Positions 39,248 through 42,263 of a stretch of 64,000 nt of DNA are shown piece by piece (the first letter of the stretch is position 1; every line of letters begins with the position of its first letter). The translations under genes and the position numbers were made by a program. The notes below the pieces were generated by a model. It was given only the letters and a program-made list of their open reading frames with translations, did no database searches and was not told where the DNA came from. Where the stretch lies: assembly GCA_013388855.1 (NCBI GenBank), contig JACAEM010000003.1:62001-126000 (forward strand). The letters are read 5' to 3'. Origin of the DNA: Chloroflexota bacterium (GTDB lineage: Bacteria > Chloroflexota > Anaerolineae > Anaerolineales > Villigracilaceae).

Positions 39248-41050
39248 ATGACTATCTCTGCCCCGCGTTGGGATCTCTCCAACGTTTACCCATCCCTCGA
39301 CTCTACGGAATTTAAAGCCGCGGTCGCCGATTATAAGAAACAAGTCGCCACATTGGAAAAGTTTTTCAAATCCAAACTCAGCAAAGCCGACGCCAAAACT
39401 AAGACGAAGGAACTTGCTCCATTGGTGGGCAAGGCCCTGGACCAGATCAATTCGATCCAGACCCTTTCCGCCACCATTGTGCCGTTCATTTATTCCTACG
39501 TCACCACCGATTCGCGCGACAAACTCGCCATGAAGACCCTGTCTGAGTTCGAGCAAGCCAGTCTGCCCATGGATAAATTGATGACCCAGTTCAAAGCGTG
39601 GCTGGGCAGGGTCGCGCCGAAACTGGACAAGGTCATCGAACAGAACGAAACCGCCAAAGCCCATGCCTTCATGTTGAAGGAAGCCGCCGAACAGAGCAAA
39701 TACCTGATGAGCGAAGCGGAAGAAGCTCTTGCAGCAGAACTCTCTCTGAGCGGAGGCAACGCTTTTGGCAAATTGCAGGGAACGGTCACCTCGCAACTTT
39801 CCGTGGATTTTGAACTGGACGGCAAAACGGAAAAGCTGCCCATGCCCGCGCTGATCAACCTGCGTTCGCATCCCGACGAAGCCACGCGCCGCCGCGCCTA
39901 CGAAGCCGAGAACAAAGCCTGGGAGTCGGTCAAAGAGACTTTGGCGGCGTGCCTGAACGGGGTCAAGGGTGAAGCGAATACCCTGAACAAGAAACGCGGT
40001 CGCAAGGATGCCATCCATTCCTCACTTGAAGCCGCGCGCATGGATCGCAAGACCCTCGATGCGATGCTCACTGCCATGCAGGATTCCTTCCCGATGTTCC
40101 GCCGGTATTTCCATGCCAAAGCGAAAAAGATCGGCAAGGAAAAACTCGCCTGGTGGGACATCTTTGCCCCCATGGGCAAAACAGACAGGGTCTATTCATT
40201 CGAGGAAGCGCGCGATTTCATCCTCGAGAATTTCGGCAAATTCTCGCCCGACCTTGCGGCGTTCGCCAAACGCGCCTTCGATAACCGCTGGATCGACGCC
40301 GAACAACGCGAAGGCAAACGCGGCGGCGCCTTCTGCATGGAGGTGCAGGGACTCAAAGAGAGCCGCATCCTCTCCAACTTCGACGGCTCGTTCGACCAGG
40401 TCAGCACGTTGGCGCATGAACTGGGTCACGCCTTCCACAATGAGTGCGCCTATCAGGCAGGTAAGACTGTCCTGCAACAGCTCACGCCCATGACGCTCGC
40501 TGAGACCGCCTCCACCATGTGCGAGACCATCATTACGGAAGCCGTCCTCGCCTCCACGACTGATCCGCAGGAGGAATTGGCTGTCCTCGAAGCGCAGATC
40601 CAGGGCGCCGGGCAGGTGGTGGTGGATATTTATTCCCGCTACCTGTTCGAGAAGGAGGTCTTCGAGCGCCGTGACCAGGCGGAACTCTCTGCCGACGATT
40701 TCTGCGACATCATGGAACGCGCCCAGAAAGCCACCTATGGCGATGGACTCGATGAGCGATACCTGCAAAAGTTCATGTGGACGTGGAAACCTCACTACTA
40801 TTCGCCCAGTTTATCGTTCTATAACTACCCGTACGCGTTCGGTCTTCTGTTCGCCACGGGACTTTATGCCATCTACCAACAGCGCGGTGAGGCATTCGTT
40901 GAGGATTACAAGAATCTGCTTGCCTCCACCGGCGAGGAGACCGCTGCCAAACTCGCCAAACGCTTCGGCATTGATATTACCAAACGCAAATTCTGGGATG
41001 ACAGTCTTGCCCTTATCGGCAGGCGTATCGACCGATATTGCGAGCTTTAG
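39248..41050 (+). CDS. pepF: M3 family oligoendopeptidase F
   Basis: 600 residues, the full family length. A cytoplasmic zinc metallopeptidase cutting short peptides. The active site is LAHELGHAFHNE, near residue 389 (HExxH), with the third ligand Glu in TLAETASTMCE downstream. PYAFGLLFATGLYAIYQQ near the C-terminus is typical. AAAGGAG precedes the ATG. Confidence 0.95.
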   Translation: MTISAPRWDLSNVYPSLDSTEFKAAVADYKKQVATLEKFFKSKLSKADAKTKTKELAPLVGKALDQINSIQTLSATIVPFIYSYVTTDSRDKLAMKTLSEFEQASLPMDKLMTQFKAWLGRVAPKLDKVIEQNETAKAHAFMLKEAAEQSKYLMSEAEEALAAELSLSGGNAFGKLQGTVTSQLSVDFELDGKTEKLPMPALINLRSHPDEATRRRAYEAENKAWESVKETLAACLNGVKGEANTLNKKRGRKDAIHSSLEAARMDRKTLDAMLTAMQDSFPMFRRYFHAKAKKIGKEKLAWWDIFAPMGKTDRVYSFEEARDFILENFGKFSPDLAAFAKRAFDNRWIDAEQREGKRGGAFCMEVQGLKESRILSNFDGSFDQVSTLAHELGHAFHNECAYQAGKTVLQQLTPMTLAETASTMCETIITEAVLASTTDPQEELAVLEAQIQGAGQVVVDIYSRYLFEKEVFERRDQAELSADDFCDIMERAQKATYGDGLDERYLQKFMWTWKPHYYSPSLSFYNYPYAFGLLFATGLYAIYQQRGEAFVEDYKNLLASTGEETAAKLAKRFGIDITKRKFWDDSLALIGRRIDRYCEL

Positions 41051-41058
41051 CGCCGGTC

Positions 41059-41083
41059 TGGGCGGGGTTTGATACCCCGCCCA
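41059..41083. terminator. GC-rich hairpin after pepF
   Basis: TGGGCGGGGT / ACCCCGCCCA with a 5-base loop. No T tract follows, so it may be only a weak terminator before the rhodanese gene. Confidence 0.5.
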
Positions 41084-41100
41084 AACTTAATCAGGCAAAG

Positions 41101-41577
41101 ATGAAATTCCATTTTGGAATCTTTTGCTTCCTGCTCTTGACCACAATGGCTTGTAACGCGTCGACAACGCCAACTGTGGAGCCGATTCCCACCGCGGTCA
41201 TCGAAGCGCCTTCCACACCGACAGAGAACAGCGTCATTCCACTCACTGAAGCCGATGTCCCGCGCATCTCACTGGAGGAGGCGTTGGTCGCACATGCCAG
41301 CGGCGCGGCGGTCTTTGTGGATGTACGCGTCCCGCAATCCTATGAGCAGAGTCACATCCCTGGTTCGCTCAACATCCAGCTTGAGAAATTCGAGAAGGAC
41401 CCAATGGGCTTGGAACTCGATAAAGAGCAGTGGATCATCACCTACTGCGCCTGAATGAATGAGCATTCGAGCGCCCGTGCGGCGTTTTTACTCCTGCAAA
41501 ATGGATATACCCGCGCCACCACTCTCCTCGGCGGATTCAACGCGTGGACCAAAGCGGGATACCCCATCGAACCATAA
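41101..41577 (+). CDS. Rhodanese-like lipoprotein with in-frame TGA (possible selenoprotein)
   Basis: Reading through one TGA (41452-41454) gives 158 residues: a lipoprotein-type signal (CFLLLTTMACNAS), a Thr/Pro linker, and a complete rhodanese domain (LEEALVAHASG, VDVRVPQSYEQSHIPGSLNI, then LLGGFNAWTKAGYPIEP). The active-site loop reads ITYCA, TGA, MNEHSSARAA, where relatives usually have YCACPNEH, so TGA replaces a cysteine codon. A hairpin AGCGCC/GGCGTT (41470-41486) begins 16 bases after the TGA, where a bacterial SECIS could be. Alternatives: a nonsense mutation or a sequencing error. Confidence 0.7.
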
Positions 41578-41586
41578 CGAGCAGCC

Positions 41587-41952
41587 ATGACCATTCTTGC
41601 CATCGACCATGTTCAACTCGCCATGCCCGTCGGCAAAGAGACTGAAGCGCGCGACTTTTACGTCAATGTATTGGGATTCGTCGAAGTCCCCAAACCGCCG
41701 GAACTTTCCTCGCGCGGCGGCGTATGGTTCGAATCGAACCACGTAAAGTTGCACCTCGGCGTTGACCCGGACTTTCATCCCGCGCACAAAGCACATCCCG
41801 CCTTCCTCGTGGATGATTTGGATGCAGTCGTTGCCAGGGTGGAACAGACACACTATAAAACCGATACATCCCAGCCGCCATTGGATGGATACAAACGCGC
41901 ACACATTCTTGACCCATTTGGAAATCGAATCGAGTTGATGGAAAAGCTATGA
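41587..41952 (+). CDS. VOC (glyoxalase-like) family protein
   Basis: 121 residues forming a single vicinal-oxygen-chelate domain: ILAIDHVQLAMPVGKETEAR, FYVNVLGFVEVPK, HPAFLVDDLDAVV and HILDPFGNRIELME. His near the N-terminus and Glu near the C-terminus are the expected metal ligands. Could be a glyoxalase, dioxygenase or resistance protein. Overlaps the cupin gene by 4 bases. Confidence 0.9.
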   Translation: MTILAIDHVQLAMPVGKETEARDFYVNVLGFVEVPKPPELSSRGGVWFESNHVKLHLGVDPDFHPAHKAHPAFLVDDLDAVVARVEQTHYKTDTSQPPLDGYKRAHILDPFGNRIELMEKL

Positions 41953-42263
41953 ACACGCCTCTTGTCACCCCCTGGGCTGATTCTTTTCCCCCAATCCGAT
42001 CCACGCTCTGGCGCCTTATGACGGAGGATGGGCTGAGTCCCTATTCCTGGTCGAACGGACCGCACGATATTTATCCGGCTCACTCGCATTCCTATGACAA
42101 GGTCATTTATGTGGTGCAGGGGAGCATTACGTTCGGTCTGCCCGAATCAGGGCAGAAGATCACCCTGAAAGCGGGCGACCGGCTTGACCTGCCCGCCGGC
42201 ACGGTTCACGATGCTGTGGTCGGTGCGCAGGGTGTCCTCTGTCTGGAGGCACACAAAGATTGA
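41949..42263 (+). CDS. Small cupin-domain protein
   Basis: 104 residues, one cupin barrel. Motif 1 is PAHSHSYDKVIYVVQGSITF and motif 2 LKAGDRLDLPAGTVHDA, with the metal-binding His residues present. Its ATG overlaps the VOC stop (ATGA), so the two are translationally coupled. Substrate unknown. Confidence 0.88.
   Translation: MNTPLVTPWADSFPPIRSTLWRLMTEDGLSPYSWSNGPHDIYPAHSHSYDKVIYVVQGSITFGLPESGQKITLKAGDRLDLPAGTVHDAVVGAQGVLCLEAHKD

Follow-up and report, generated by a model that had tools for sequence, protein, structure and literature searches.

An in-frame TGA in an otherwise intact gene can be a lesion or a codon, and this locus raises the question of which it is. In the window, that is, the whole stretch of 64,000 nucleotides analysed here and numbered from its first letter, a reading frame that starts with an ATG at 41101 meets a TGA at 41452-41454 and then stays open to a TAA at 41575-41577. 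Read-through would give a product of 158 amino acids in which residue 118 is the single selenocysteine (Sec, U). By sequence the product clearly carries a rhodanese domain, and the match to PF00581 (Rhodanese, Pfam) spans the TGA, covering residues 62-151 and profile positions 6-101 of 102 at 61.3 bits (gathering cut-off 22.2; E 1.3e-16). The full domain broken by one in-frame TGA, as described in an earlier, sequence-only reading of this DNA, is thus confirmed by a profile match that crosses the interruption. Standard annotation would call the gene truncated. The comparative evidence argues that the TGA is a selenocysteine codon rather than a lesion, with a probability of roughly 0.93. Coordinates of the gene, its parts and its neighbours are collected in Table 1.

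Table 1. Features of the candidate selenoprotein locus (window coordinates)
Feature	Position	Strand	Remarks
Candidate selenoprotein gene, rhodanese, probably membrane-tethered	41101..41577	+	158 aa with the TGA as Sec; ends at a TAA
N-terminal signal, lipobox-like TMAC, Cys18	41101..41154	+	From sequence; relatives have TLAC, ALAC and similar
Cys116 codon TGC	41446..41448	+	Putative partner of Sec118; Sec here in 11 UxU relatives
Sec118 codon TGA	41452..41454	+	Motif Y115-C116-A117-U118; codon shared by 102/102 family TGA loci
SECIS-like bacterial hairpin	41469..41487	+	7 bp stem 41469-41475/41481-41487, loop CGUGC 41476-41480
M3 oligoendopeptidase, pepF-like, upstream gene	39248..41050	+	Pfam PF01432 and PF08439
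Glyoxalase-family gene, downstream	41587..41952	+	Pfam PF00903
Cupin gene, downstream	41949..42263	+	Pfam PF07883

The lineage is Anaerolineae-like and belongs to the Chloroflexota. The search for relatives covered 152 genomes of the same family and listed 150 matches, and the homologue counts that follow are lower bounds. Exactly one TGA is present in each of the 101 listed matches of at least 81 bits, and in 1 of the 49 weaker listed rows. The claim that the sequence on both sides is undamaged holds for these close relatives too, which have their one TGA each and no scattered lesions. For comparison, 105 family loci were chosen rather than drawn at random: the 102 listed rows with a TGA, and three others that have none (L132-L134), in which the motif is missing and which do not count among the 102. 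Aligning homologues had been proposed as a check on the codon, and in all 102 TGA loci of the family genomes the TGA occupies the identical codon of a YC[TA]U motif (CTU in 99, CAU in 3; the window has YCAU). The base after the TGA is C in 97 of the 102 loci; the window has A there, as in 3 of the 102, which counts somewhat against recoding. A Cys form at the Sec site was found in none of the close family matches listed, and Sec is therefore the rule at this site in the close family, a point absent from the earlier reading. With Sec at the site in every listed close match, the question "why Sec here" could be put to the test with Cys mutants. A further search of contigs for related loci, with a query pattern that read the site as Cys, returned five loci at best-segment identities of 31-40%, none with Sec, a result of little weight given that pattern.

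These data bear directly on the simplest rival explanation, namely that a Cys codon has suffered a nonsense mutation and the gene is decaying. A single TGA replacing a Cys looks the same by eye in either case, and the window branch is rather long (0.49). However, the same codon is TGA in 102 loci from many genera, the hairpin downstream is conserved, and protein conservation is higher beyond the TGA than before it: the mean identity between the window and 101 relatives is 63.5% over the 40 amino acids after the TGA and 48.7% over the 70 before it. A nonsense mutation cannot account for a TGA held at one codon and followed by better-conserved protein, and decay of the gene is highly improbable.

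The gene is also widespread. By hand count at least 74 of the 152 family genomes carry a TGA gene, and five have three listed copies each, so that it is easy to underestimate how much selenium the lineage requires. One paralogue (L094-L098) is identical in DNA in five genomes that are placed in three genera; the identity extends over 963 bases or more in every one of them and over about 2.4 kb in three. A mobile element may have spread this copy recently, or assembly bins may have been mixed up.

Decoding of UGA as Sec depends on dedicated functions, and the check for them that had been suggested turned up all four in the host genome. The tRNA-Sec scores 68.4 bits against a gathering score of 47 and is called tRNA-SeC with anticodon tca by ARAGORN, and SelB (343 bits), SelA (545 bits) and SelD (348 bits) each exceed their curated cut-offs. 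SelD has one in-frame TGA of its own, in the stretch SACAGU (L136, about 1516-1533), and is both an internal positive control and a second selenoprotein gene in this genome. A general change of the genetic code, with TGA read as another residue such as Trp, would leave the frame open as well. It is barely credible for a genome that has tRNA-Sec, SelA, SelB and a SelD with a TGA; in addition, distant relatives (L169, L170, L172) have CxC at the site, and the neighbouring pepF-like, glyoxalase and cupin genes give full-length domain matches with normal ends under table 11.

Across the class, tRNA-Sec accompanies the gene more often than chance predicts: it was found in 60 of the 68 genomes with a listed TGA rhodanese versus 235 of the 328 others (Fisher p 0.0035), and among good-quality genomes in 39 of 40 with the TGA gene versus 158 of 194 without it (Fisher p 0.008). 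These sets are hand counts, and the quality classes of 40 genomes come from rounded figures. Eight of the 68 genomes with the gene have no detected tRNA-Sec, one of them (G208) being 95% complete. With tRNA-Sec present in most class genomes anyway (295 of 396), the co-occurrence is modest evidence.

The remaining expectation for a bacterial Sec codon is an RNA element close by. The sequence-only reading had placed a hairpin near the SECIS position; the hairpin is present, with a gap between the TGA and the stem of 14 bases instead of the 16 given there. It lies just downstream of the UGA, where a bacterial SECIS element would be, and has a G in its small apical loop, the loop feature that PMC1088965 gives for such elements. 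The fold of the single sequence was dropped as proof of a SECIS, since its z score is only -1.10 and 29 of 200 shuffles fold equally well or better. The lone fold being unexceptional, the case for the hairpin is carried by comparison. In the family alignment (92 distinct sequences) 91.9% of the cells are paired, and 15 cells show double-sided changes, a number reached in 0 of 500 shuffles; only 2 pairs have such changes, which is not unusual (181 of 500), and sliding the partner by +3 gives an equal covariation score, though with just 57.6% of the cells paired. In the class alignment (52 class sequences and the window) 99.2% of the cells of the 5 bp core are paired, 3 pairs have double-sided changes, a count matched by 1 of 500 shuffles, and sliding the partner lowers pairing to 20-60%. 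The hairpin alignment (A3) excludes L178, L181, L182 and L204, in which the Sec site or the register differs. An Rfam scan of 41000-41700 gave nothing above threshold; a sub-threshold match to RF00043 in this interval (21.7 bits, cut-off 55) was taken as chance.

Synonymous sites are constrained as well. Fourfold-degenerate sites in the stem and loop are frozen as GCC (95 of 95), CGT (91 of 91) and GCG (93 of 93), and the next Ala codon is GCG in 88 and GCA in 7. The surrounding fourfold sites mostly vary, with entropies of at least 1 bit, apart from three sites of 0.79-0.98 bit and an invariant ACC immediately 5' of the TGA. This pattern points to selection on the RNA in addition to selection on the protein. 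Together, the conserved codon, the covariation in the hairpin and the Sec machinery support the proposal of a selenocysteine rhodanese. Of the conditions named in the earlier reading as refuting it, a lack of Sec machinery and further lesions in close relatives were both checked, and neither holds.

What the Sec residue might do can be approached through the fold. A model predicted from 6 sequences has a mean pLDDT of 78, with block means of 80-95 from residue 51 on, and places a strand at 111-115, Cys116 directly after it and a helix from 121. The nearest solved folds to this model in Foldseek are rhodaneses, including 6mxv (best E 2.8e-8), BH2092 and GlpE, and the predicted structure is thus that of a rhodanese. 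Program alignments anchored on the strand equate Cys116 with the classical Cys and leave two extra residues in the loop, and counting back from the following helix puts Sec118 in the classical catalytic position; in either alignment both residues are within the active-site loop. They may form a Cys-Sec redox pair, and the UxU relatives fit a dithiol-like pair.

The model also bears on the possibility that the main product is the truncated protein of 117 amino acids, read-through being minor or regulatory. Sec decoding is often inefficient, and the export signal would remain on the short protein. Termination at the TGA would, however, remove the helix at 121-133, the strand at 138-142 and the helix at 145-151 of the predicted domain, and would leave the strong constraint 3' of the TGA unexplained. 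The truncated protein is a very improbable main product.

The earlier reading had called the protein a lipoprotein, which is plausible: a loose lipobox pattern is matched by 52 of the 60 pepF-linked copies versus 5 of the 42 others, while in the window the box reads TMAC (residues 15-18), a non-canonical form. Six copies without pepF linkage that were examined start with a long hydrophobic stretch resembling a membrane anchor. On the lipobox matches and the hydrophobic N-termini, the family copies look membrane-tethered with the domain outside, and such tethering outside the membrane is likely for the rhodanese of the window.

The neighbourhood is conserved in part. Over the 102 TGA loci, some of them cut short by contig ends, 60 have a pepF relative upstream in the same orientation, at a median of 133 codons from the pepF stop to the Sec codon, and downstream, again in the same orientation, there is a glyoxalase relative in 22 and a cupin relative in 31. 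A strong GC-rich hairpin with no T-run after it lies between the pepF-like and selenoprotein genes of the window at 41059-41083, the stretch 41051-41100 folding at -27.5 kcal/mol; it could act as an attenuator or as a leaky terminator. In another paralogue group an ArsR-family regulator gene lies upstream in 13 loci (in a blast cluster of 14 that includes L107-L109, L114, L116-L118, L122, L124, L126-L128). A stricter search with one ArsR protein found it upstream in 3 loci, none of them pepF-linked.

The pathway proposed for the gene would run as follows. SelB and Sec-tRNA would decode the UGA at 41452-41454 as Sec under the direction of the hairpin at 41469-41487. The product, a single rhodanese domain, would be exported and held at the outer face of the membrane, probably by an N-terminal lipid. 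The active-site loop would be Cys116-Ala-Sec118, and these residues might, rather uncertainly, cycle via a selenenylsulfide. The protein could then handle thiols or persulfides outside the cell, by sulfur transfer or by reduction of persulfide or disulfide bonds, perhaps in step with the product of the co-located peptidase gene. From fold and motif, the best functional guess is a thiol/persulfide redox enzyme that works outside the cytoplasm through a Cys-Sec pair, its chances being put somewhat below even. Alternatively, the protein could be a carrier of selenium or of soft metals outside the cell and not redox-active. A C-x-U motif could bind soft metals, and the ArsR-family gene upstream in the other paralogue group fits such a role; but the ArsR linkage has no overlap with the pepF-linked group to which the window belongs, and sulfur transfer is the usual job of rhodanese loops. 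A carrier is the less probable of the two.

Beyond the family, the motif takes several forms. Presence or absence of a TGA guided the choice of the 56 further loci from the class and of most of the 32 from the phylum (L139-L147 are copies of earlier loci and not counted as new, and L231 and L234 repeat L029 and L151). Among the 56 TGA loci from across the class, 47 are CxU at the same site, 5 are UxU, with the sequence YUTU (L164-L168), and 4 differ. Three of these four (L181, L182, L204) have a Cys immediately before the Sec. The fourth, L178, is odd in that its TGA occupies the first motif position (YU-M-M), with no C-x-U; it may use Sec differently or carry the TGA by chance. CxC occurs at the site in distant relatives only, namely the three cited above. 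In the class list TGA-less matches (72.5, 61.5 and 58.4 bits) are intermixed with weaker TGA matches, among the matches listed, a point against recoding. A distant class row of 28% identity (G500) contains a TAG. A TGA is present in 28 of the 32 phylum loci, 6 of which are UxU (L235-L240), and 4 have none.

The 11 UxU loci have two TGA codons, one sense codon apart, followed by one hairpin, and 8 of their 11 genomes yielded a tRNA-Sec. A tree made by a quick method from few columns, and weakly supported at many forks, requires 9 label changes to accommodate the 11 UxU rows, at least 2 of them enforced by well-supported branches. The second Sec was therefore probably gained or lost more than once. 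These forms provide a clean system for the question of how one SECIS handles two UGAs.

Other lineages of the phylum have the CxU rhodanese domain fused to the C-terminal end of cation/proton antiporters: PF00999 and PF00581 are both above their cut-offs in 10 of 10 proteins tested (L225-L230, L233, L250, L251, L253). Three of these fusions were compared with NCBIfam, and the antiporter models closest to them, at scores below cut-off, are those of potassium/proton antiporters. tRNA-Sec is present in 15 of 19 fusion-candidate genomes, which were chosen by frame length, the proteins of 10 of the 19 having been tested with Pfam. Glutathione adducts gate KefC, and gating of the antiporter by its fused rhodanese domain would be somewhat analogous. 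More speculatively, the C/U-x-U rhodanese domain could be the core of a selenium redox module found throughout the phylum. It would occur as tethered enzymes outside the cell, as UxU proteins with one hairpin for two UGAs, and as C-terminal domains of antiporters, whose ion flux it might gate in response to persulfide or to redox state; this proposal is less likely than not. The fusions offer a clean system for studying selenium-based control of ion transport.

How does this gene compare with known systems? Rhodanese-type selenoproteins have been reported, in metagenomes among other sources, as the earlier reading had stated (PMC1088965, PMC2398784, PMC9312934 and PMC13188914, in their available parts). 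The Sargasso Sea and GOS sets include Sec in rhodanese-related proteins, listed as COG2897, cd01449 or COG0607 with no motif given in the parts available (PMC1088965, PMC2398784); PMC1088965 names a predicted hairpin downstream of the TGA. The words Chloroflexi and Chloroflexota are absent from both texts. The available parts of the later papers catalogue CxU rhodanese selenoproteins as "COG0607 form 2" (PMC9312934) and as "rhodanese-like domain-containing protein form 3", model NF041203 rhodanese_LYCAU (PMC13188914). In the literature searched, which covered neither subscription papers nor preprints, no description was found of the window branch, of UxU rhodaneses or of antiporter-rhodanese selenoproteins; this holds for the parts available of PMC13188914, PMC9312934, PMC2398784, PMC1088965, PMC1794560, PMC5029168, PMC8318568 and PMC5736913, and in the main text of PMC13188914 the terms antiporter, exchanger and UxU have 0 occurrences. 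As far as that search extends, the pepF linkage (60 of 102 loci), the UxU forms (11 loci) and the antiporter fusions (10 of 10 tested) are apparently new.

NF041203, which shares the rhodanese domain with Cys-x-Sec, is the best NCBIfam match of the window protein, at 74.5 bits against a curated equivalog cut-off of 115 bits, a cut-off exceeded in 0 of 400 phylum genomes among the matches listed. All 80 rows of alignment A4 match this model at E 1e-5, and the same 80 rows match, more weakly at best, the MoeB model NF006444, which includes a rhodanese part (best E 5.9e-30 versus 6.8e-19), so that the NF041203 match alone is not specific. TsoB (NF045694), a rhodanese/DsbD fusion-like protein, is also a rhodanese-type selenoprotein, but its model has 572 positions and, in the part of its description available, a UxxxxU motif; with 32.8 bits against 805, a single Sec and only 158 amino acids, the window protein was rejected as a TsoB. 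The single-domain sulfurtransferases GlpE and PspE belong to the same domain family and are solved relatives by sequence or predicted fold. They have one catalytic Cys and, unlike the window protein, neither Sec nor a C-x-U pair. The score relative to NF041203, together with the absence of phylum genomes above its cut-off, indicates the same kind of protein in a variant branch, which differs in being apparently tethered outside and pepF-linked, with relatives that include UxU forms and antiporter fusions. By sequence comparison, the window gene would represent a known kind of selenoprotein in a new branch and in new settings.
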